From assembly GCA_027081505.1 (NCBI GenBank), contig JALWKK010000007.1, positions 1 through 59,935 of the forward strand: a DNA stretch of 59,935 nt, given 5' to 3'. The notes below the pieces were generated by a model that saw only the letters and a program-made list of their open reading frames with translations, was not told where the DNA came from and searched no databases. A program made the translations under genes and the position numbers. The number at the start of each line of letters is the position of its first letter. The first letter of the stretch is position 1. This document shows, piece after piece, positions 38,448-51,215 of the stretch. This DNA is from Flavobacteriaceae bacterium (GTDB taxonomy: Bacteria > Bacteroidota > Bacteroidia > Flavobacteriales > Flavobacteriaceae).

Positions 38448-38705
38448 ATGAAGCTACCCGTTATCAAGCATATTACCAACTTTATAGAAGAAAACGATGA
38501 AGATTATGTTATAGAAACAATTGAAACGTTAGAAAATCTTACCGAAGCTAGAGGTATAAGTGATGAAGAAATGGATGTTATTGGTGAGATCATCTCGAAT
38601 ATGTACGGAGCCATTGAAGTTACAAAATTGATAAAAGAAGGCGCCAGTAAAAAAGATGCTTTAAATTCTTTTATGAAACGCGTGCAAGGTTCTATAGATA
38701 CTTAA
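38448..38705 (+). CDS. small conserved protein, DUF6952-like
   Basis: 85 residues, acidic and helical (MKLPVIKHITNFIEENDEDY at the start, NMYGAIEVTKLIKEGASKKDALNSFMKRV near the end, in two parts). I recognise it as a conserved flavobacterial family found next to thioredoxin/peroxiredoxin genes, probably DUF6952. No function is known. Its stop codon overlaps the stop of the convergent TonB receptor gene on the other strand (shared TTAA). Confidence 0.78.
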   Translation: MKLPVIKHITNFIEENDEDYVIETIETLENLTEARGISDEEMDVIGEIISNMYGAIEVTKLIKEGASKKDALNSFMKRVQGSIDT

Positions 38706-41014
38706 AAAGTTGCTCTCATTACAAAATTTGGTGTAAATCCTAACGAAAATTTATCGACTACCGAGACCGAATCATTTGTTCCGTTATTTCCAGAATATTC
38801 TCTACTTAATTGGTTTTTCTTATCATACACATTGCGAATAGAAACACCCAGATTACATTTCACCTTTTTCTTTTTGGAAAAATAAAACGCATAGGTTGAT
38901 GAAAAGTCCAGCCTATGGTAATTAGGTAATCTTTTGGTGTTAATACCTTCAAAACCAATTATGTTTTTGTCTTCATCTACAATAGCCATTGTATAGGGCT
39001 TACCGGTTCGCCAGTGCCAAGCAAGTGCCGTTTCAAACCGATGTAACTTATATAAAACCGAGATTGTTACAAAATGCCTTATGTTGCTACTTGCTGTAAA
39101 ATAGTTGTTGTTATTAATTCCCGAATAATTACTTTGCACATTATTAAAGCTGTAACTTAACCACATATTAAAATGTTTGTAGTTTTTTTTAACAAAAAAA
39201 TCTAAGCCGGTAACATCCTGCTTTCCGATATGAAAACCAGTGCTGTTAGGATTTAAAAAACCTAGTGCTAAAGCTGTTAATCCCGTAGTTCGTTTAATAT
39301 ATCCATCTACATCAAGCATCCACCCGTTTTTTTCAAAAATTAATCCGGTTGAAACTTGAATCGTATTTATTATTGGATATTCTTGATTATTTGCTAACCG
39401 CCACAACCTGTTTTCTAACGAAAAGTTACTAATAACCGTTTCGTCTATCTCATTTATAACTTGGTTTTTAATCTCTCCTGAAACTTGAAGTTTAAGGTTT
39501 TTAAATAATTTTCGAAACAACAATACTCGCGGTTCTACTCTAAAAGAGTTTAATTGCGGGTAATAATTAATTCGCAACCCAAAAGAGCCTTCGTAATTTT
39601 TCTTACTCTCTAATTTAAAATTTCCAAAGAGCGAATGGGTAGCCACTTGTGTTTTATCTACATCTAAAACAAACGTACTTGTAGTTGTTTTAATAAATGA
39701 ATACCCTACATCTTTAAAATTATATTCGTACCCGAGCAACAAAGAATTCTCTTTAGAAACCGGAAACGAAAGCATTGATTGAATACCCGAATCGTATATA
39801 TCATTTCTCTTTTCAAAATTAGATATTCTTGAAAAATTAGCATTTTCAATAAAGTTATATTTTAATTTGTATTTAGAAAAAAAAGCTTTCGTATTTAACT
39901 GGATGTTCTTCCATGATTTATCCCATTTTATGCTATAACCATCATTTACGGTAGTTAAAACATCATTAAGCGAATTTGTTTCATCATTATTTAAAACAAG
40001 AAAATCCAACCGGTTTGTTATAGAGATTCCGCTTAACGAAATAACCGAATTGGGAGTTGGTTCTATTAACAATTTAAAAGTATAGTCTGAAAAGGTAAAA
40101 TCGTTTGTTTTGTTTTTTGTGTTCTTTATTTTAGTTGTTTGAAATACTTTTTTGGCAAGTTTTTTAAAAGTTAAATCTTCGGTATAACTTTTTCTAGCGG
40201 CAAACTGAAGGCTTATTTTATTTTTTATAATAGGCACTTCCGAAAAAATATCGGCATTAATACCATTAATTCCGGTTCCTATTTTAAGCTTATTTTTTAC
40301 ATATTGGTTAGAGCTTATATCTATTACACTGGAAACGCGCTCACCATATTGTGGAGGAGTTCCTTTGTTATAAAAATTAACTTTTTGTGTAATATTGGGG
40401 TTAAACCCGGATAACATTCCAAAAAGATGCCCTTTATGATACATTGTAATACCGTTCCAAATAATTCGGTTTTGGTCGGTTTGCCCACCTCTCACGGTAA
40501 AACCTGTAGCTGTTTCGTTTGGGCTTACTACTCCCGGTAATTGCTGAATACTTTCTAAAACATCGGCTTCTACAAGACCGGCTAAAATACCTAGTTTTTT
40601 GGGTTTTAAGACAAATGAGCCATCTTTGTTTTTGGTTATCCCTTTTGTTAAATAACCAAACAAAATAACGCTTTGCAGTTGTTGTATATTTAAAACAGAA
40701 AAAACATTGTCATTTTTTATTGGTGTTGCAATAATGTATCTATTATTTATAAAACTAAATTTTACTTGGGTTTGTTTGGTTATGTCTTGAAGTATTTCTT
40801 TTAGTGTTCGCTTCTTTTTTGTTAATGTAACTGTATTATTTTGAACGGTTTTTTCGATATAAGAAAATCGCACACCAAATAAATCTTCAATAGTAACAAA
40901 TACTTCATCGAGTGGTTGGTTAACAGCCTCAACAGAAAAAGCAATCTTTTCTTGAGAAAAGACTGCTTTAGATAAAACAACAAACAATATAATTAAAAGA
41001 AGTTTATTTGTCAT
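38702..41014 (-). CDS. TonB-dependent receptor/transducer with N-terminal STN domain
   Basis: 770 residues. A signal peptide (1-20) is followed by an STN domain (~22-90, EVFVTIEDLFGVRFSYIEK, LKEILQDITKQTQVKFSF), which in FecA-like proteins contacts the FecR anti-sigma factor. The plug (~130-240: PGVVSPNETATGFTVRGGQTDQNRI in two parts) and the barrel follow, ending FTPNFVMRATF. It is probably both importer and sensor. Its ATG overlaps the fecR stop by four bases. Substrate unknown: no siderophore or heme genes are nearby. Confidence 0.9.
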   Translation of the reverse strand: MTNKLLLIILFVVLSKAVFSQEKIAFSVEAVNQPLDEVFVTIEDLFGVRFSYIEKTVQNNTVTLTKKKRTLKEILQDITKQTQVKFSFINNRYIIATPIKNDNVFSVLNIQQLQSVILFGYLTKGITKNKDGSFVLKPKKLGILAGLVEADVLESIQQLPGVVSPNETATGFTVRGGQTDQNRIIWNGITMYHKGHLFGMLSGFNPNITQKVNFYNKGTPPQYGERVSSVIDISSNQYVKNKLKIGTGINGINADIFSEVPIIKNKISLQFAARKSYTEDLTFKKLAKKVFQTTKIKNTKNKTNDFTFSDYTFKLLIEPTPNSVISLSGISITNRLDFLVLNNDETNSLNDVLTTVNDGYSIKWDKSWKNIQLNTKAFFSKYKLKYNFIENANFSRISNFEKRNDIYDSGIQSMLSFPVSKENSLLLGYEYNFKDVGYSFIKTTTSTFVLDVDKTQVATHSLFGNFKLESKKNYEGSFGLRINYYPQLNSFRVEPRVLLFRKLFKNLKLQVSGEIKNQVINEIDETVISNFSLENRLWRLANNQEYPIINTIQVSTGLIFEKNGWMLDVDGYIKRTTGLTALALGFLNPNSTGFHIGKQDVTGLDFFVKKNYKHFNMWLSYSFNNVQSNYSGINNNNYFTASSNIRHFVTISVLYKLHRFETALAWHWRTGKPYTMAIVDEDKNIIGFEGINTKRLPNYHRLDFSSTYAFYFSKKKKVKCNLGVSIRNVYDKKNQLSREYSGNNGTNDSVSVVDKFSLGFTPNFVMRATF

Positions 41015-41934
41015 TGACCGGAGCTAAGCACTATCGTTTGTTTATCTGTTTTTTTATAACGTATTCCTGCAGTTTTAAAAACAGACTCTAAAGCAATATT
41101 AATATTAGAATGTGTAAAACTTCCTGTAAAAATAACAGAATCATCAACATTATCCAATATAAATTTAATATTATATTGCTTCTCAAAAGCACTTAAAACA
41201 TATTTTAGAGGCATTTTGGTAAAGGTACTTTCTCCTTCAATCCAAGAGGGTCTTTTATAAGGTGTTTTTTCTGATGTAATGGCATTTCCTATTTTCCGAT
41301 AGGAGTCTTTGGGTAAAAGAATAACCGGCAAGCTATCTGTAGTTGTTTTAACGCTTACTTTTCCGGTAAAACAAGTTACTTCAAAAAAATTGGTATCACT
41401 ATTAACATTAAAAGAAGTACCCAGTACTTGCACCGTTCCTTCATCTGTAACTACAGTAAACGCACTTCCCTTCTTTACTTTAAAAAAAGCTTCTCCCTTA
41501 AGGGTTACTTTTCTAAAATCTTCCCAGTTGCTTTTGTCGTAACGTAATGTAGAATCATTATTTAACAAAATAGTTGAACCATCAAGCAATGCAATGGTTT
41601 TTTGTTCTCCTCTATCTGTTTTAATAATTTCGATGTCGTTTTTTAATAAAGTAAAAAGACCGAAAAACAAAACCAAACCGGCGGCTATGGATACCGCCCA
41701 TTTGGTGTAGAGGTGTTTAAGTTGGTAGTTTTTCTTTTTCGCAATTTTCTCCCTAATAACTTTAAATGTGTCATCAACGGGTTTTTCAAGAAACGCATAA
41801 GCGTCCACCCCTTTTTTTAGTTTTTGATAGTGCAAAAATTCATTTTCAGAAACATATTGCTGAAATTCAGCATCGGTTATGCTTCCTTCAAACCATTTTG
41901 CCAAAAACGTAGTATTTACTTTTTCTTTTTCCAT
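41011..41934 (-). CDS. FecR-type anti-sigma factor
   Basis: 307 residues. The N-terminal cytoplasmic anti-sigma region (~1-70) is followed by one membrane helix (~77-97, VSIAAGLVLFFGLFTLL), a periplasmic FecR domain (DRGEQKTIALLDGSTILLNN, GEAFFKVKKGSAFTV) and a C-terminal DUF4974 domain (PLKYVLSAFEKQYNIKFIL). It holds the sigma factor until the TonB receptor reports its ligand. The gene has a promoter-like block ending only 6 bp before its ATG, so the mRNA leader would be very short. Confidence 0.93.
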   Translation of the reverse strand: MEKEKVNTTFLAKWFEGSITDAEFQQYVSENEFLHYQKLKKGVDAYAFLEKPVDDTFKVIREKIAKKKNYQLKHLYTKWAVSIAAGLVLFFGLFTLLKNDIEIIKTDRGEQKTIALLDGSTILLNNDSTLRYDKSNWEDFRKVTLKGEAFFKVKKGSAFTVVTDEGTVQVLGTSFNVNSDTNFFEVTCFTGKVSVKTTTDSLPVILLPKDSYRKIGNAITSEKTPYKRPSWIEGESTFTKMPLKYVLSAFEKQYNIKFILDNVDDSVIFTGSFTHSNINIALESVFKTAGIRYKKTDKQTIVLSSGQ

Positions 41935-41940
41935 ATTTTC

Positions 41941-41975
41941 AAGTATAAGACAACTTAAATTTAAAAAACCCTATT
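41941..41975 (-). promoter_or_regulatory. putative ECF-sigma promoter of fecR-receptor (copy 1 of inverted pair)
   Basis: Read toward fecR, the 35-bp block has AATAGGGTTTTTT, then AAATTTAAGTT, then GTCTTA (41951-41946). It recurs almost exactly in the opposite orientation at 42574-42612. The GGGTTTT and GTCTTA boxes are spaced like -35 and -10 elements. GTCTTA ends 11 bp before the ATG, so the transcript would be nearly leaderless. Confidence 0.7.
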
Positions 41976-42008
41976 GTTATGGTTATTTTTTGCCGGACAT
42001 TAATAAAA

Positions 42009-42521
42009 TTACACCTTTCCTATCTTTTTATTTATAACTTTTAAAGCGTCGTGCATTCTTTTTTCAACTGTTTTTATGGATACTCCCAACAGTAGAGCAA
42101 TTTCTTTGTATTTCTTCTTTTCTATTCTGCTTAACAAAAATACTTCCCGTTGTTTGTCGGGCAATTCGCTTATAGATTTTTCAATTTTTAACAAAAATTC
42201 TTTTTCTATCATTAAATATTCGGGTGATTGTTTGTTTACAGAGTCACCTAGTCCTTTTTGATAATTACGAACTACTTTTAAATGTTTTGTATGATTTATA
42301 AACAAATTGTTCGCAACAGTAAACAAATAACTTTTTAGCTTTAAAATATTTACATTATCGCAATTTTCCCATAACTTAATAAATGTTTCTTGTAAAAGAT
42401 CTTCTGTTTTTTCAATATTTTGTGTTTTAAAAAATAAAAAACGCTTTACGTCTTGTGCGTATGTAGAAAAAATTTTTTCAAATTTTTTTTCATCACATAT
42501 ATTAGGTATATTTTTTTTCAC
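42009..42521 (-). CDS. ECF RNA polymerase sigma factor (FecI-like, Bacteroidota type)
   Basis: About 170 residues from a GTG at 42521, or 178 from a TTG at 42545; there is no in-frame ATG before residue ~112. Region 2 reads RFLFFKTQNIEKTEDLLQETFIKLWEN and region 4 LPDKQREVFLLSRIEKKKYK and EIALLLGVSIKTVEKRMHDAL. GTG is preferred because a TAGCTTTG box at 42557-42550 would start the transcript about at the TTG. It is followed by fecR and the TonB receptor, the standard surface-signalling set. The inverted promoter copies flank exactly this gene, so it probably recognises them itself. Confidence 0.9.
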   Translation of the reverse strand: MKKNIPNICDEKKFEKIFSTYAQDVKRFLFFKTQNIEKTEDLLQETFIKLWENCDNVNILKLKSYLFTVANNLFINHTKHLKVVRNYQKGLGDSVNKQSPEYLMIEKEFLLKIEKSISELPDKQREVFLLSRIEKKKYKEIALLLGVSIKTVEKRMHDALKVINKKIGKV

Positions 42522-42549
42522 TATTTTGCTTTTCGAAACAAACAAGGCT

Positions 42550-42557
42550 CAAAGCTA
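42550..42557 (-). promoter_or_regulatory. possible housekeeping -7 element (TAGCTTTG) of the sigma factor gene
   Basis: TAGCTTTG fits TAnnTTTG; a TTTG lies about 14 nt upstream, which is shorter than usual. If used, it would let the sigma gene be made by the housekeeping sigma factor while its targets use the GTCTTA-type promoter. Confidence 0.35.
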
Positions 42558-42573
42558 TGAAAATTATTTTTCA

Positions 42574-42612
42574 AATAGGGTTTTTTAAATTTAAGTTGTC
42601 TTACTTATACTT
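42574..42612 (+). promoter_or_regulatory. putative ECF-sigma promoter of the Kazal lipoprotein gene (copy 2)
   Basis: The same block as 41941-41975, inverted, with one 4-bp difference (an extra TTAC/CTTA step near the end). GGGTTTTTT is at 42578-42586 and GTCTTA at 42598-42603. The ATG follows at 42613, nine bases after GTCTTA. The match covers 35 bases with no substitutions, far more than neutral intergenic DNA would keep by chance. Confidence 0.72.
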
Positions 42613-43716
42613 ATGGTAAAATTGAATATTTTTTTTGGTAAAAAACCCAACTACTTTTATTTATATTTCTTCATTGTGAGTAGTTTGCTTATCGGCACCT
42701 ATTCTTGTGTTAACAACGATTCTTCATATGAAAGTTTAGAAACAGATATTGAAGAGAGCTCTTCTCTTACCTATGTTTTAAATGAAATGGAAACCTTTTT
42801 TGACAATGAAGGAAATCCCACCTCAGGTCAAAATCCTACCGGTAATTTTGTAATGGATTTTTGCTTTGATTTTGTTTATCCCGTTACATTAATTTACAAT
42901 ACAGGCACTACGGTAACCATTACCAATTTTGATGATTTTATTGCTATTTTGGTAAATTCCAGCGAAAATTTATACTTAACAGGAATTGAATTTCCTTTTC
43001 AAGTTCAAGTGTATAATGAAGAAACACAGACTATTGAAATTATTACTATCGAAAATGAAGTACAATTTCAAAACCTAATAAACATTTGTAATTTTAACGA
43101 CTGCTATTGTACTACAGATTACGATCCGGTTTGTGTGTCGATAGGTTTACCTGACGGAACTTTTGAAATATTAGAATACCCAAACTCGTGTGTAGCGACA
43201 TGCTATGGGTTTGACTATGAAGATTTTCTGGATTGTAACAGTTCTTGCAATTGTCCACTCACAACAGATCCGGTTTGTATTTACGATTCAACTCTAGGAA
43301 TAATTGAATTTAACAACACTTGTGAAGCACAATGTGAAGGCTATACTCCTAACGATTTTGTAGATTGTAATGGATGCAGTATTTATGATGTAAACATCTT
43401 TACAGGAGATTGCTACTCAGCAGGTACCTACAATTTATTTATTGATTTTGAGTATACTGCCACTACTAATTATCCTTATTTTGATATCTATTTAGAAAAT
43501 AATGAATATTTTACTTCTATTCCACTATTCGATCTACCGGTAGTAATTGTTAACTTTCCAATGAGTGGTAATCAAAATGATTTTATAAAAATCTGTATAG
43601 ATGGTGGAACCGATTGTTGCATTGAAGAACAATGGTTATCACCTAATTGTGGAGCTCCTGTTCCCCCTGCCGGACAAATAAATGATGAAAGAATTATTTA
43701 CAGAACCGTAAAATGA
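42613..43716 (+). CDS. lipoprotein with two Kazal-like domains
   Basis: 367 residues. A signal peptide ends in a lipobox-like TYSC (C32), so the protein is probably lipid-anchored. Residues ~50-158 are unassigned. Two Kazal-like modules follow: C164-C208 (CYCTTDYDPVCV...EYPNSCVATCYG) and C212-C252 (CNCPLTTDPVCIY...FNNTCEAQCEGY), each with the DPVC and NxCxAxC marks of Kazal inhibitors. The last ~115 residues are beta-rich with a CC pair. Kazal domains inhibit serine proteases in animals and some bacteria; inhibition here is inferred. It shares its promoter block with fecR-receptor. Confidence 0.82.
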   Translation: MVKLNIFFGKKPNYFYLYFFIVSSLLIGTYSCVNNDSSYESLETDIEESSSLTYVLNEMETFFDNEGNPTSGQNPTGNFVMDFCFDFVYPVTLIYNTGTTVTITNFDDFIAILVNSSENLYLTGIEFPFQVQVYNEETQTIEIITIENEVQFQNLINICNFNDCYCTTDYDPVCVSIGLPDGTFEILEYPNSCVATCYGFDYEDFLDCNSSCNCPLTTDPVCIYDSTLGIIEFNNTCEAQCEGYTPNDFVDCNGCSIYDVNIFTGDCYSAGTYNLFIDFEYTATTNYPYFDIYLENNEYFTSIPLFDLPVVIVNFPMSGNQNDFIKICIDGGTDCCIEEQWLSPNCGAPVPPAGQINDERIIYRTVK

Positions 43717-44134
43717 AAGCAATCGTTAAAGCAGTTCGTAACGCTGTTTTGTTTTTAATATAAATTTTCTCAACAATGATGGTATCTTACTTTTGTAAGA
43801 ACTTTATATTTTACTATTGATTAGTAATACCAAAAGGAATTGTATTTTAGTCCAAAATAAATTGGAATATTTTGTACTAGTAAATACTGACACCAAAGAA
43901 ATTGCAAGCTTTATTCATCCCGAATATTAAAAGAGAAAAGAGAAAATAAAAGTGTTTTTTTTCCGCAAATGTTGCTCTTATGGTTACCGAAATAATTTTT
44001 ACACAAATCAAAAAAACCGGAATAATAAATACCACCTAATGCAACTCTCTAAACCAATAACTCCCCTTTAATGTAAATTTTAAAGGAGAGTTATGCGCTG
44101 TTTAAACAGAGAATTTGTTGAGAAAAACTATATT
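43717..44134. other. convergent intergenic region without a gene
   Basis: 418 bp between the lipoprotein gene and the starch locus. A run of about 45 codons without an ATG (ending TDTKEIASFIHPEY near 43929) is the only coding-like stretch and is not recognised. There is one good hairpin (44057-44094). A weak CGTTA/TAACG hairpin just after the lipoprotein stop, followed by a T-rich tract, could end that transcript. Confidence 0.5.
44057..44094 (-). terminator. hairpin downstream of the starch gene cluster
   Basis: ATAACTCCCCTTTA (44057-44070) and TAAAGGAGAGTTAT (44081-44094) pair over 14 bp; in minus-strand RNA the single odd pair is a G-U. It is 41 bp after the stop of the 44135 gene. No U-tract follows, so termination may be factor-assisted. 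Confidence 0.5.
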
Positions 44135-45589: not shown

Positions 45590-48400
45590 CTATTCTTTAA
45601 CAAATTTTATATTATATACATCAGAATCTATCAGGGCTTTTATTATATAAATACCGGCGTTTAGGTTGTTAACTGAAATGGTCTTATTTGCCGTATAATT
45701 ATTTTCGGAAAAAATTAATTTTCCGGTTATTGAATATACAGACAATTTATCTATGTTTTTGTTTAATTTGATCTCGTTTCCGGAAGGGTTTGGATAAACG
45801 CTTAGTGTTTGTAAAACAGGTTTATCCGGTGAAGATAAATAGGTTGATTGATTTGAATAAACTCGATACTCACCGGGTTGTAACCAAATCGGGTCGTTGG
45901 TGTTGGTAACATTTATCATTGTGTCATCCAGCATATTATACCAAGTTCCCGTTTCTTGAAACTGAGGATAAATATTTTTTGCTACTACATCAAAATTTCC
46001 TAAAACGGTAACATATTTTATTTGCGTTCCGGTTGCAAACGGGTCTTCTAATTGAATTCTTTTTAATCCGTCCGGATTTCCAACATCCAGCATAAAGTTG
46101 TTTGTCCAGAAAATAGGGTTGTAGATTTTTAGTCCGATAAGTTTTTTCCAAACATTATATAGATCCATTCTGTCCTGATCATTGAGGTAGCCTAAGTTCC
46201 AAGCGATAGGTTTCGGGTCCACTCTACAGTTTGAATTAATGGTTCCGTCTTGGCAATAGTTAATGCTGTATTCGTATCCCAATTCATCAAACTGCCAAAT
46301 CATTTTAGGACCGGGTATAGTAAAAAAGAATGCTCCGGCGAGTTCCATTCTGTCAAGAGCCGTGGAAAGTTCTTGAATGTCATAACTTCCGCTTGAATTT
46401 CCCCATTGCAAGTTTTTATACATCAATCTTTCTTCGTCGTGGCTTTGCATATAGGCAAGATTTGACGGAGTGCTCCATCCTCTGTTTAAATATGATATCC
46501 AAGAAAAATTTGAGTTATTGTTCCATCCCATAGTCGCCTCGTTGTAGGTGTAATTATGGTTAGCCCAAACCATCATACCGGGTTCTTCCGGATCTGATGT
46601 TGCTCTATGGTTTATTAGTTCTGTTTCTTCGCTATTGGGTGCAAAATGTTCAAGAATAACATATGCGGTAGGATCTACTTGACGTATGGCATTGTACATT
46701 CTTTCAAGTATGTATATTCGAGAGGCATCATAACCACCTCCATCTCCAACAACATTTGTAAATCCTTTTGTAAAATCAAATCTAAAACCATCCAAATTAA
46801 ATTCGGTTAACCAATATTCGTTAAGTTTGTCTATGTAATGTTGTGTTGCCGGTGACTCGTGATTAATATCGTTAAAAAATTGAAAAACCGTGTTTGGGTC
46901 ATTTACATTAAAAATCGGGTTTTCGGGGGTAGCTTGCCCAACATAACATCCGTTACAATCGTTCCACATTCGATAGTAAGGATTTTGTCCGGTTGCATGG
47001 TTATAAACAACATCTATAATAACTGCAATACCTCTGGCATGACATTCATCAACAAAGGCTTTAAACTTTTCTTTGCTACCGTATTGCTTGTCTAAAGCCA
47101 TATGAAAAGCAGGATTGTATCCCCAACTTGAATTGCCGTCAAATTCACTTACCGGCATAATGTGCAGAACATTTACATTTAAGTTTTCGAGATAATCCAG
47201 TCTTCCGTTATTTATTAATGCCTCATAGCTTTGTTGTGAGTCAAAATCTCGTATTAACAATTCATAAACAACCAGTCTGTCTTGTTTTGGTCTGTTAAAA
47301 TCTGTAATTTGCCAGTCGTAAGGTTGCTCGTTAAGGTCGAACCAAGTTACTGCATGAGAAGTTTTTCCGACGGGATAATCCGGAATATTCGGAAATGTGG
47401 ATGCCGGGATATAAGGATCGCCATATTCGTCTAATATGTAGGTAGAATAAGGGTCTGCCACAGTTATTTGTCCGTCTATAACATATTGATATAGCAAGTT
47501 GGAGTCTCCGGCATCCAAATTGGTAAGTGTAATCCAAAATCTATCTTGAGACGAGTCTTTGTTTAGTAAAAAGTTGTTTGTTAATCGCCAATCGTTATTA
47601 TTAAAATTACCAATTACGTGAACAAAGTCTTTACCCGGAGCATATAAAACCAGTGTTACTTGTGAGGGATCGTTATAATCGAAATTTAATCCGTCTTCCA
47701 TTCCGGCTGGAACCGGAATTTCTTGCGGGTTTGGAGTTAGTATTACATTAAACGTTACTGTTTTTTCTTGTCCGGTAATAACGTCTTCGGCAACTAATTC
47801 AAACCAAGTGTCTTCATTAACAGAGTAGTTTAGTGAGTAATTTGTGATATTGTTTTGAATATCGACAGAGGTTCCGTTTGCAAATAGCTCAAAATTTCCG
47901 GCTTGTGAAGCAGTAACCGAAATAGGTAAAATATCTCCGGGATTTATGATTGTATTGGCTTCGGTAGGGTAATTAAGTGTGATTTGAAATAGTCCTACTT
48001 CAAAGTAATGGTCTTGGGTTTTTTTGTCGCCGGTTCCGTCATCTGCTTTTGCAAGAACTCCTATTCTTCCGATATCTGTATCTCCAAATAATACAGAGGG
48101 TGTAAATGTAAAGGAGAATGTACCATCTCCATTATCGGTAAATTTTTGGGATTCATCCGAATTTGACCAAGAGCCGTTTGTGGGTGAGTTTCCAGCAAAA
48201 TTATAATCAAAATCATAATACCAAGTCCATAAATAAATATCTGTAACTCCCCATAGTGAAGGGTCTACATTGTCAACCGTAATGGTAATTTCGTCTGTGG
48301 GTGCAAATGTAGGTGGGCTAACTGTAAAAATCCCTGTTTGAACTTGGGCAAATGTACTAACAGTAATAAATATATAAAGATAGGGAATTATTTTTCTCAT
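45590..48400 (-). CDS. secreted GH13 alpha-amylase/pullulanase-type enzyme with T9SS tail
   Basis: 936 residues. Signal peptide 1-18; N-terminal beta domains (~22-225); a CBM48/E-set-like domain (~245-320, LVLYAPGKDFVHVIGNFN); the GH13 barrel (~375-800); and a T9SS type A tail (LSVYPNPSGNEIKL, GIYIIKALIDSDVYNIKFVKE in two parts). GH13 regions: DVVYNH (463-468), nucleophile D542 in GFRFDF, acid/base E584 in ILEHF, and D655 in MQSHDEE. It cuts alpha-glucans outside the cell for import by SusC/D. Whether it cuts alpha-1,4 or alpha-1,6 bonds cannot be told from sequence alone. Confidence 0.93.
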   Translation of the reverse strand: MRKIIPYLYIFITVSTFAQVQTGIFTVSPPTFAPTDEITITVDNVDPSLWGVTDIYLWTWYYDFDYNFAGNSPTNGSWSNSDESQKFTDNGDGTFSFTFTPSVLFGDTDIGRIGVLAKADDGTGDKKTQDHYFEVGLFQITLNYPTEANTIINPGDILPISVTASQAGNFELFANGTSVDIQNNITNYSLNYSVNEDTWFELVAEDVITGQEKTVTFNVILTPNPQEIPVPAGMEDGLNFDYNDPSQVTLVLYAPGKDFVHVIGNFNNNDWRLTNNFLLNKDSSQDRFWITLTNLDAGDSNLLYQYVIDGQITVADPYSTYILDEYGDPYIPASTFPNIPDYPVGKTSHAVTWFDLNEQPYDWQITDFNRPKQDRLVVYELLIRDFDSQQSYEALINNGRLDYLENLNVNVLHIMPVSEFDGNSSWGYNPAFHMALDKQYGSKEKFKAFVDECHARGIAVIIDVVYNHATGQNPYYRMWNDCNGCYVGQATPENPIFNVNDPNTVFQFFNDINHESPATQHYIDKLNEYWLTEFNLDGFRFDFTKGFTNVVGDGGGYDASRIYILERMYNAIRQVDPTAYVILEHFAPNSEETELINHRATSDPEEPGMMVWANHNYTYNEATMGWNNNSNFSWISYLNRGWSTPSNLAYMQSHDEERLMYKNLQWGNSSGSYDIQELSTALDRMELAGAFFFTIPGPKMIWQFDELGYEYSINYCQDGTINSNCRVDPKPIAWNLGYLNDQDRMDLYNVWKKLIGLKIYNPIFWTNNFMLDVGNPDGLKRIQLEDPFATGTQIKYVTVLGNFDVVAKNIYPQFQETGTWYNMLDDTMINVTNTNDPIWLQPGEYRVYSNQSTYLSSPDKPVLQTLSVYPNPSGNEIKLNKNIDKLSVYSITGKLIFSENNYTANKTISVNNLNAGIYIIKALIDSDVYNIKFVKE

Positions 48401-48451
48401 TTTAAAAAAATTAATATAAAGTAACTATGGCAATGATTGTGATAAAAAGTT

Positions 48452-48496
48452 AAAAAAATATCCCGAAAACTATTTGTCTTCAGGATATTTTTCGGG
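48452..48496 (-). terminator. hairpin between susE and the GH13 gene
   Basis: CCCGAAAA (48462-48469) and TTTTCGGG (48489-48496) pair, with an inner TAT/ATA extension, and the minus strand continues ATATTTTTTT. It lies six bases after the susE stop. It may lower expression of the downstream GH13 gene relative to susCDE. Confidence 0.72.
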
Positions 48497-48501
48497 TAAT
48501 A

Positions 48502-49599
48502 CTATTGTAATTCTAAGGAATAAGTATATTGTCTGGGGTTTCTTAAATCTAACGTGATTAAATACGTCCCACTTTGCGGTACTCCAATATTATCACCTTC
48601 ATATTCTAAGCTTCCATCTGCACCGGTATCGCCCAAGTTTAATGCCCAATTATCGTTTGCTCTAAATTTAAGTCCATCATTGGGTGCTGTTTGTTCTGTA
48701 AGGTCTAGTGTTACTGTCCACAATCCTGTTGTAGCGTCATAAACCATATCGGTATCACTATCCCATCCTGTTGGTGTTGCATTTCCGAGTACGCCCCAAT
48801 TTGCGGGAGAAATACTGTATGTAAGGTCTGTGGTGTTTGCATTAATTCTATAATATCCGGCTACATCAGCAACACAGTCAACTTCACCGGTTTCAACTAA
48901 AACACCTGTAAAAGTACCATCGTCTCCCCAATCTGTATTTCCCCAAGCAAAGTTGCCGTCTGCATCGGGAGCTACAAATTTATATCCTCCGTCTAACCAA
49001 GCATAGCCTTCATAATTGGTTTGTCCTATTCCTTCGGCTGCAACACGAGTCGCACTTGCAGGATCCCATCCTTGGTGATTTCCTGGAACTGCCAACATAG
49101 GTAATTCTTCTACGGGAATTTCATCAGATTCGGGTAGAATAAGGTTTAGGCTTTGAACATCGGAGAATGTTTCATTTCCACCTGTGCCAACGTAAGCTCT
49201 TAGTCTTACAAATACGGTTCCGGAATTTGGTTCCGGAGTGTCGGGATCTGCATCCAAACCTAATTCTGCAGCGTAGCCTAACATATCACCAATTGTAATT
49301 GCCAACTCATTATCCGATGTTGTATCAATCAATTGTGATTCGGTAAAATCTTGTGTATTAGAACGCAGCAAATCATAAGACACATTTGTCGGTACTCCAA
49401 AATCTACGCTATTCCAAGTAAAGCGTTCTCCTAAGTTTGATGCTGTTGCAGGAGTTAAAATGTATTCGGATAAGAAACTATTGGTAAAAGACAATCCTTC
49501 TGCTTCTTGTGCAATAAAGACAACCGAGTCATCGCTGTCACAAGAGTTAAAAGTTGTTAAAGAAAAGCAGAAAAGTATAAATATTGCGATTTTTTTCAT
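48502..49599 (-). CDS. SusE-like starch-binding outer membrane lipoprotein
   Basis: 365 residues. The lipoprotein signal ends in FNSC (C20). A SusE N-terminal domain (~25-145, LSEYILTPATASNLGERFTWNSVDFG in two parts) is followed by two binding domains (AVPGNHQGWDPASATRVAAEG and VLGNATPTGWDSDTDMVYD), the GNHQGWDP and GNATPTGWD marks being typical of SusE/F. It helps hold maltooligosaccharides at the cell surface. It is last in the susC-susD-susE order, 20 bp after susD. Confidence 0.9.
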   Translation of the reverse strand: MKKIAIFILFCFSLTTFNSCDSDDSVVFIAQEAEGLSFTNSFLSEYILTPATASNLGERFTWNSVDFGVPTNVSYDLLRSNTQDFTESQLIDTTSDNELAITIGDMLGYAAELGLDADPDTPEPNSGTVFVRLRAYVGTGGNETFSDVQSLNLILPESDEIPVEELPMLAVPGNHQGWDPASATRVAAEGIGQTNYEGYAWLDGGYKFVAPDADGNFAWGNTDWGDDGTFTGVLVETGEVDCVADVAGYYRINANTTDLTYSISPANWGVLGNATPTGWDSDTDMVYDATTGLWTVTLDLTEQTAPNDGLKFRANDNWALNLGDTGADGSLEYEGDNIGVPQSGTYLITLDLRNPRQYTYSLELQ

Positions 49600-49619
49600 T
49601 TTATAAGTATTTTAATTTA

Positions 49620-51215
49620 TTAGTAACCTGGATTTTGTTCTAAGTTTGGGTTTACACCTAAGTCTGAAGCCGGAATGGGCATAATGTCTCTAAAGGATTC
49701 TGTTGTGGTGCCATTCGGCACATTTCCTTTCCACGGCCAGATACCTTGACTTGAAAATTGATTAAATCTTATTAGGTCTGTTCTTCGGTGTGCTTCCCAA
49801 TATAATTCACGAGATCTTTCAGATAAAATAAAATCTAATGTTAAATCTGCTTCGGATATATTTCCTGAAGAATTTCCATAGGCTCGTGTTCTAATTTCAT
49901 TTATATAATCAACCGCTGTGGAGCCGTTTCCTCCACCGCCTCGTAAATAAGCTTCTGCATACATAAGGTAAACATCGGCAAGCCTAAACATAGGGAAATC
50001 GGTGTCCGGAAAATTATTCGGATCGGATCCGGGGTTTCCGTTTACGTCAACATTTCTAAATTTTTCTATGGCATATCCGTGATTAAAATTTGATATATCC
50101 AAAATTTCTTTGGTTTGGTTTGTTGTAAAAAACTGGGCTCTATTGTCTGGAGAATTTTCTTCGCCCGGAAATTGTTCAACAAAAACAGAGGTTGTTCTTA
50201 GTCCTGCCCATCCTCCGTTTATACCAAAGTCGGCTGGATTCATATCTCCTCCTACGGCAGCATGTACTAAAAAGGTCATTCCGCCGTAAGATTGCGTACG
50301 TAATCCATCAAAAGGTATGGTAAATATTGTTTCTTCTTGTGCGCCATTTGTATCATTATCTGCCAAAAAAAGGTGTTTGTAAGGTATTTGTGCAATTGAA
50401 AAACCGGAAGAAGTAATTTTATTACAATAATTTATCACATCTTGATAACGGGCACTTCCGATATAGACTTCGCTGTTTAGGTATAATTTGGCTAATAATG
50501 TCCATACTGCCGCTTGGTCTGCTCTTCCGTATTCGTTTTGTCTTGCAGGCACAATTTTGTTTTCTATATCTAATAACTCGGACTCGATATAGTTAAACAA
50601 TTCTGCTCTTTGAATTTGTTCCGGCAGGTAGGCTCCGATAGGGTCATTTTCGGTTACAAACGGAGGGTTTGCAAATAAATCTAATGCGTGCCAGTAGCTT
50701 AAAGCTCTCATAAATCTCGCCTCAGCTCTATAATTATTAATGTCTGCTCTTAGTTCGTTACTTACTCCTCGTTCATCTAATAACTCGGGTGTGGTTTGCC
50801 TTAGAAACTCGTTACACAAAGAAATTTGATACATTATACGACTATACATTGTGCGTATAAATTCATTTCCGGACGTCCAGTTTTGCCCGTGTAAATCTTT
50901 TATAGTTCCATCGTTCCAACCTATTACGGCTTCGTCGGTAGTAAGTTCTTGCATTTTCCAGTAAAGCCTAAGGTAGTTTGAGAAACCTTCATCAAGTCCT
51001 TCCAAATCCGGTGAACCAGCCGGACCTTGTTGCCCGCTTAAAGATATTCCGGCATAAATTTTTGCGAGAAAAGCTTTGTATGACTGCGGGTCGTCAAAAG
51101 CTGAAGCAGAAGTATTTCTGTCATCTTCAGGTATTAAATCTAAGTTACTTTCACAAGACACAAAAAACAGTGTTAATGTAAAAAGAATAAGAATTTTTTT
51201 GATACTATTATACAT
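49620..51215 (-). CDS. SusD/RagB family starch-binding lipoprotein
   Basis: 531 residues. The lipoprotein signal has FVSCES (C21) and the body has the TPR-like SusD fold (LRADINNYRAEARFMRALSYWHALDLFANPP in two parts; YADVYLMYAEAYLRGGGG-like segment FRLADVYLMYAEAYLRGG; the C-terminal LSERSRELYWEAHRRTDLIRF). It forms the lid on the SusC barrel and binds the sugar. It lies 22 bp downstream of susC, so it is the same operon. Specificity for maltooligosaccharides is inferred from the locus. Confidence 0.95.
   Translation of the reverse strand: MYNSIKKILILFTLTLFFVSCESNLDLIPEDDRNTSASAFDDPQSYKAFLAKIYAGISLSGQQGPAGSPDLEGLDEGFSNYLRLYWKMQELTTDEAVIGWNDGTIKDLHGQNWTSGNEFIRTMYSRIMYQISLCNEFLRQTTPELLDERGVSNELRADINNYRAEARFMRALSYWHALDLFANPPFVTENDPIGAYLPEQIQRAELFNYIESELLDIENKIVPARQNEYGRADQAAVWTLLAKLYLNSEVYIGSARYQDVINYCNKITSSGFSIAQIPYKHLFLADNDTNGAQEETIFTIPFDGLRTQSYGGMTFLVHAAVGGDMNPADFGINGGWAGLRTTSVFVEQFPGEENSPDNRAQFFTTNQTKEILDISNFNHGYAIEKFRNVDVNGNPGSDPNNFPDTDFPMFRLADVYLMYAEAYLRGGGGNGSTAVDYINEIRTRAYGNSSGNISEADLTLDFILSERSRELYWEAHRRTDLIRFNQFSSQGIWPWKGNVPNGTTTESFRDIMPIPASDLGVNPNLEQNPGY

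Follow-up and report, generated by a model that had tools for sequence, protein, structure and literature searches.

In the 59,935-nt stretch of Flavobacteriaceae DNA analysed here (the window), a TonB/FecR/ECF surface-signalling module very probably reads two copies of one promoter, placed in opposite orientation on the two sides of its sigma gene, with a divergent Kazal-like lipoprotein as its main other output. The locus holds a sigma factor with regions 2 and 4, a FecR-type anti-sigma factor, a signalling-type TonB receptor and a promoter that is conserved in relatives. Its features are as follows.

38702..41014, minus strand: TonB-dependent receptor, 770 aa, with an N-terminal signalling-type (FecR_C/STN-like) domain and a plug
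41011..41934, minus strand: FecR-type anti-sigma factor, 307 aa (FecR 7.6e-19, FecR_C 1.7e-9)
41946..41975, minus strand: putative ECF-sigma-type promoter of the fecR-receptor operon (inverted repeat, conserved element and spacing); TAGGGT at 41973-41968, TGTCTTA at 41952-41946
42009..42545, minus strand: ECF sigma factor, 178 aa from TTG 42545 (Sigma70_r2, Sigma70_r4_2; TIGR02985 just under its cut-off)
42550..42557, minus strand (read 42557-42550): candidate sigma-A-type -7 box TAGCTTTG of the sigma gene, TAnnTTTG toward sigma
42574..42603, plus strand: putative ECF-sigma-type promoter of the lipoprotein gene (inverted repeat, fixed spacing, conserved element); TAGGGT at 42576-42581, TGTCTTA at 42597-42603
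42613..43716, plus strand: lipoprotein, 367 aa (open reading frame, alignment, PDB profile, module pattern and predicted model)

Two predicted promoter copies around the sigma gene

Read directly, the minus-strand block running from 41975 to 41941 (35 nt) differs from the plus-strand block running from 42574 to 42612 (39 nt) by a single 4-nt indel and by nothing else. The arms 41946-41975 and 42574-42603 form a perfect inverted repeat of 30 nt, 100% complementary and 598 nt apart. The first-pass annotation had described a 35-bp block recurring in opposite orientation with no substitutions and one 4-bp indel, its copies flanking the sigma gene and each facing its own target, and both statements are borne out, the fecR ATG lying at 41934 and the lipoprotein ATG at 42613, each downstream of the copy oriented into it. 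A chance origin of the repeat can be ruled out: the longest exact inverted repeat in first-order Markov copies of 41500-44000 had a mean of 13.5 nt and a maximum of 22 nt (200 trials), the sites are conserved in relatives, and a 30-mer search with up to three mismatches found no third site in the window's genome (2.12 Mb, 112 contigs, 78.8% complete).

The same annotation had proposed -35/-10-like elements. The two-part promoter stands; its parts need to be redrawn, the conserved upstream element being TAGGG(T) and not GGGTTTTTT, and the downstream one TGTCTTA and not GTCTTA, with 17 nt between TAGGG and GT. The family as a whole reads GTAGGG, and the window has A in place of the first G (ATAGGG) in both copies. 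By the numbering used for sigma-H, the predicted transcript starts would lie at about 41940 for the fecR-receptor operon (6-nt leader) and at about 42609 for the lipoprotein (4-nt leader). On the fecR side of the relatives the first ATG is most often found 11-15 nt after the -10 element, a distance so short that near-leaderless anti-sigma mRNAs are likely in the family.

The sigma gene itself seems to be outside the control of its own promoter. The sigma-A-type consensus TAnnTTTG, taken from PMC9723704, reads toward sigma in 65/69 loci (shuffled mean 5.1, maximum 11), and in the window this box stands back to back with the lipoprotein promoter. Because of the position of the box (42557-42550), and because relatives start later, GTG 42521 is a likelier start of the sigma gene than the listed TTG 42545. 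Housekeeping promoters for the lipoprotein and for fecR were also considered and rejected, since a TAnnTTTG box pointing the same way follows the motif in just 3/69 and 2/75 regions, respectively.

Among the domains of the receptor, FecR_C (1.2e-7, residues 32-95) and Plug (7.9e-6) score above their cut-offs, and the STN model (E 0.023) below it. In the window's genome FecR_C occurs only in this locus and in a second full sigma-fecR-receptor set on contig C56 (L091:3405-9346). This set has GTAGGGT sites of its own, with CTGTTTGA and CTGTTGTA as -10-like elements, and a divergent 598-aa lipoprotein whose META/lipocalin-like match is weak and under the cut-off. Adjoining the locus in the window (45590-51215) is a starch-type set composed of an alpha-amylase with a secretion sorting tail and SusE and SusD proteins.

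Conservation in relatives and the probable tie to the sigma factor

The comparison with relatives began from loci found through lipoprotein homologues (20 fetched), which already had the motif at both places. Eight receptors from these loci, together with the window receptor, were the seeds for a search of named genomes, from which the best 80 of 106 confirmed loci were used; with the window these make 81. They include Psychroserpens, Winogradskyella, Aureisphaera, Meridianimaribacter, Yeosuana, Kordia and Pedobacter cryophilus. Since the seed receptors came from lipoprotein-found loci, the set leans toward lipoprotein-bearing kin, and the counts describe relatives of common ancestry, in which loci are not independent events. 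The fecR side comprises 75 loci, after removing two without fecR and four with too little upstream sequence, and the divergent side 69, after excluding nine without sigma and three with sigma at a contig edge.

GTAGGG is found upstream of fecR in 70/75 loci and on the divergent side of sigma in 64/69, against a shuffled mean of 0.6 (maxima 4 and 3) and no occurrence on the opposite strand. TAGGG is absent from the fecR side in L124 and in L150, the latter truncated by the contig end. TGTCTTA or a near variant follows at a fixed distance, with 17 nt from TAGGG to GT in 66/66 fecR-side and 63/66 divergent-side sites, in a test that allowed 14-19 nt with a small score bonus for 16-17 and that took loci with good dyads on both sides. 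Sixty-seven of the 69 loci could be paired, 66 of them with good dyads on both sides; those left over are L166, whose divergent side has no TAGGG, and probably L120, whose region is shortened by an ORF start, L154 being under the score cut. Within the window's own genus, the sigma factor is found with E no higher than 1e-50 in 9/19 genomes, each of which, counting that of the window, has both sites; by sequence, all of these loci but L180 are also in the 80-locus set. A wider sigma group of 30 loci, window included, gives raw counts of 27 TAGGG on the fecR side and 27 on the divergent side, with L077 having neither. Because this group keeps TAGGG, often with a TGTTTTA-like -10, the -35 element is the part common to a broad group and the -10 the more variable part. 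Altogether, the comparison gives good support to reading the block as an ECF-sigma-type promoter that relatives share, GTAGGG-N16-TGTCTTA. The annotation had asked whether the block always precedes fecR/TonB and Kazal genes near this type of sigma; this is largely so, with both sites present across genera at fixed spacing, although not in every locus. A look for the same sigma lacking the block elsewhere came out in favour of the claim, given the recurrence of both sites across genera.

Several observations suggest that the promoter probably belongs to this sigma factor. The base after GT is the same in both promoters of a locus in 55/66 cases, compared with 37.8 on pair shuffling. In a set of 93 labelled sigmas, all 83 loci with Asn84 (window numbering) have T before GT and all 9 with Asp or Ser have C; in a tenth C locus the sigma is gapped at position 84, and L075 (Lys84), with its -10 at another distance, was left out. 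In the further loci that were then compared, the count also omits L069 (shifted -10, as in L075) and, as having no countable site, L054, L055, L045 and L077 on both sides and others on one side. Every countable site in these further loci agreed with the rule, with or without L063 and L181, which repeat first-set loci, and L065, which is the same as L050. Position 84 is one among several associated columns and was chosen for its place in region 2, and along the sigma tree the association comes down to only two changes (sign test p 0.5), so that the link between residue and base is suggestive, not significant. In sigma-H, N92 contacts the base pair at -11 (PMC6411747), and by residue spacing against that paper we match position 84 with N92, a correspondence that is our own and tentative. 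Finally, at a single locus, L124, fecR and the receptor are found with unrelated genes where sigma would be, and the block is missing.

The lipoprotein and the breadth of the regulon

A homologue of the lipoprotein diverges from sigma at 62/69 loci, the window included. The remaining seven comprise four with other cargo, L166 with another gene adjoining sigma and no TAGGG there, and L151 and L154, which end before the divergent gene. The four are L138, L147, L149 and L169 (Yeosuana, Pedobacter cryophilus and a MAG), where a thioredoxin-like/ApbE/DUF3570-type operon takes the place of the lipoprotein (Pfam: L149) and is the gene set that the divergent promoter site stands before; three of them have two successive divergent sites. 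We think that this is swapped cargo on one signalling chassis, for which the Kazal lipoprotein is the usual, not the obligate, cargo, as far as the sequences tell. A rearranged module occurs in G214 (L045:7612-15697), where the gene of a large Kazal-like lipoprotein shares the strand of sigma and stands upstream of it, a further gene intervening. Extra genes separate sigma and fecR there, and GTAGGGT still precedes the lipoprotein. Lipoprotein homologues are present in 19/249 genomes of the family, its own included, and in 2/148 of an order-wide draw, one of which is its own.

Behind a signal peptide with Cys32, the lipoprotein has a conserved domain at its N-terminal end (about 45-160), then a pair of Kazal-like modules (about 164-208 and 212-252) and a C-terminal beta-sandwich (about 253-345). 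In the predicted model (pLDDT 81.6, pTM 0.50) each module has two strands and a helix, between the N-terminal domain and the sandwich. The pattern C..PVC..N-x-C-x-A-x-C is present in 52/59 complete lipoproteins, with 1-5 modules each and 107 in all. A PDB profile search with E up to 1 gave three matches, all of them non-classical Kazal inhibitors (E 0.04-0.3). Pfam finds Kazal_2 in 2/25 members, with a best E of 0.023, and none in the window protein, and unrelated models score better in a few members (RHS_repeat in 3/25, best 2.1e-5). The P1-like residue is acidic in 62/83 modules, which makes it doubtful that trypsin- or elastase-like enzymes are inhibited; the window modules have Thr and Leu. 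The domains had been called protease-inhibitor-like, a description that is weak in view of the Kazal scores and the acidic P1-like residues. The fold search returned weak matches, mostly fibronectin-III/Ig-like and presumably falling on the C-terminal sandwich of the model; several of the top ones, with rmsd about 20, have little meaning. No SusD domain was found in the window lipoprotein (E up to 0.05) nor among the 25 listed of 26 families for the lipoprotein alignment. The surface-export signal of Bacteroidota consists of a polar or positive residue and then two acidic ones after the Cys, as given in PMC5080379; several relatives have CTNDD or CTNDE, and CVNNDSS in the window is a poor fit to it.

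The exact pattern GTAGGG-N16-TGTCTTA has 33 matches in 19 genomes, 18 of which carry at least one, and 29 of the matches fall within this locus; the reversed control gave 2. Three of the four outside matches (L194, L198 and L205, Winogradskyella) lie before genes of related lipoproteins, 358-453 aa long and each with a pair of CxxCH motifs. The regulon thus appears nearly private, with further targets possible, the exact pattern being blind to variant -10 elements. In the window's genome, TAGGGT-N13-18-TTGTNNTA gives five matches (reversed control 1), two of which are the sites of the locus; the other three are before a lipoprotein paralogue (C59), inside an ORF (C45) and before another gene at a different spacing (C79). 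The C59 paralogue (L051:7896-8690) stands alone, has an Asp-rich repeat tail and follows a GTAGGGT...TTGTTTTA site; the surrounding 16 kb contain nothing related to sigma, fecR or the receptor. In other ECF/FecR systems too, among them a second one of the window's genome, GTAGGG stands upstream of genes, and cross-talk is therefore possible. An earlier reading of the locus as a private regulon keeps its core, the two promoters and the near-private distribution; it does not extend to the four relatives with other cargo, nor to the exact identity of the copies, which is lineage-specific.

Probable origin of the copies, proposed mechanism and known systems

The spacers of the two window copies are identical (1.0), compared with a mean of 0.61 within loci and 0.55 between loci, and the lipoprotein ATG is only 9 nt after the -10, a fecR-like distance, instead of the 42-52 nt of 47/60 loci. 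Both copies carry ATAGGG and then TATACTT and ATGG, and by alignment the window lipoprotein has about 11 extra N-terminal residues relative to its relatives. Most simply, this would be the result of a recent event that placed a copy of the fecR promoter, as far as the start codon, before the lipoprotein gene; the extra residues would be accounted for as well. The genus-mate G188 has no near-identical copies, and the exact identity is, from this comparison, a lineage-specific trait and not a general rule; with 0.61 against 0.55, spacer identity is a weak sign of function and was discarded as such. One may ask whether the identity reflects just a recent duplication devoid of regulatory meaning, as the spacers and the shifted ATG could suggest. 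We find this hardly credible, for TAGGG and TGTC persist at both positions in relatives whose spacers differ widely, and the promoter function is therefore older than the copying.

Perfect 30-bp arms flanking exactly the sigma gene also bring to mind a recombination site at which the sigma segment inverts between its neighbours, and invertible DNA segments are known in Bacteroidota. Nevertheless, sigma reads toward fecR in 69/69 loci (the script took this orientation only), the arms are not identical in relatives, and L124, the sole locus with room but without such a sigma, has unrelated genes there; visual inspection of the ORF list between 33000 and 50000 turned up no recombinase. Such inversion is very improbable. 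Somewhat less remote, and still improbable, is that the block binds another regulator co-controlling both genes, which a different sigma would transcribe. Both copies are placed where a regulator could bind, and the tie of sigma to the block comes from sequence comparison. The two-part shape with fixed 17-nt spacing and an ECF-like -10 argues against this, as do the scarcity of same-direction TAnnTTTG boxes downstream, the base before GT that tracks a sigma residue (two changes only) and L124, one locus that lacks both sigma and block.

We therefore favour the two-promoter signalling module. By analogy with FecI/FecR/FecA, FecR would hold the ECF sigma until the N-terminal signalling domain of the receptor meets its signal, and the freed sigma would then bind and read the two copies of TAGGG-N16-TGTCTTA, that of fecR-receptor and that of the divergent lipoprotein. 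With a separate housekeeping-type promoter for sigma there would be no self-amplification, and the main outputs would be its own anti-sigma factor, the receptor and the lipoprotein. Equal promoters would yield matched amounts of receptor and lipoprotein, as for partners, and the lipoprotein may perhaps be surface-exposed and serve the receptor as its partner, as a lid or as a ligand trap. A more speculative idea, which we regard as rather unlikely, is that the lipoprotein is a dedicated surface partner of the TonB transducer that traps or presents the signal, e.g., a protease of foreign origin or a protein that such a protease has cut, in a module that senses and answers proteolytic attack or protein prey, and which would represent an undescribed kind of receptor pair. 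In that case, docking on the receptor would fall to the conserved N-terminal domain, and what is caught would depend on the variable modules (0-5 Kazal-like; lipocalin-like or Asp-rich repeats in some relatives).

Dozens of ECF/FecR/TonB loci of marine Flavobacteriaceae can thus be brought under one two-promoter regulon with a defined and testable consensus, GTAGGG-N16-TGTCTTA, and with the lipoprotein named as its main further output. With this consensus the targets of uncharacterised sigma factors become readable in sequence data, and the association of the base before GT with residue 84 gives a concrete hypothesis for ECF -10 specificity. The sharing of a promoter in many related bacteria suggests that receptor and lipoprotein act together; if the lipoprotein is the partner of the receptor, this would be a SusD-independent pairing of a TonB transducer with a surface protein.

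The apparent position of the sigma gene outside its own regulon has a parallel in fecI, which is likewise not known to be transcribed by FecI. The locus further resembles FecI-FecR-FecA signalling in its ECF sigma, FecR anti-sigma factor and TonB receptor with N-terminal signalling domain (PMC9249621, PMC11637429). It differs from that system in having a sigma-type promoter between sigma and fecR, which would serve anti-sigma factor and receptor, and a second copy before the divergent lipoprotein; no iron-transport genes were noticed beside the locus in the ORF list. In Bacteroidota, SusC/SusD pairs under ECF/anti-sigma control combine a TonB receptor with a co-regulated lipoprotein, and the present pair is alike in joining an outer-membrane TonB receptor to a lipoprotein under predicted shared regulation. 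ECF sigmas occur inside polysaccharide loci (PMC12596196). Unlike SusD, the lipoprotein here gave no match to a SusD family, is divergent and has its own promoter copy. Among Flavobacteriaceae, the ECF promoter class SM6 of F. psychrophilum has a CGT -10 box and is linked to T9SS genes (PMC9723704), and CGT is also the -10 in a minority of these loci; the main type here, however, is TGTC with TAGGG as -35, which the available passages of PMC9723704 do not mention for SM6. The modules share a C-x-C...PVC...N-x-C-x-A-x-C-like framework with non-classical Kazal inhibitors, such as the elastase inhibitor 1y1c and the leech tryptase inhibitors 2kmo and 1an1, and differ from them in a longer middle loop, a mostly acidic P1-like residue and their place inside a bacterial lipoprotein. 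In the open-licence literature we found no report joining a Kazal lipoprotein to ECF/FecR/TonB signalling, nor this consensus. ECF/FecR/TonB signalling and lipoprotein partners of TonB receptors are already known; what appears new with respect to that literature is the double-promoter layout with a Kazal-like second target.
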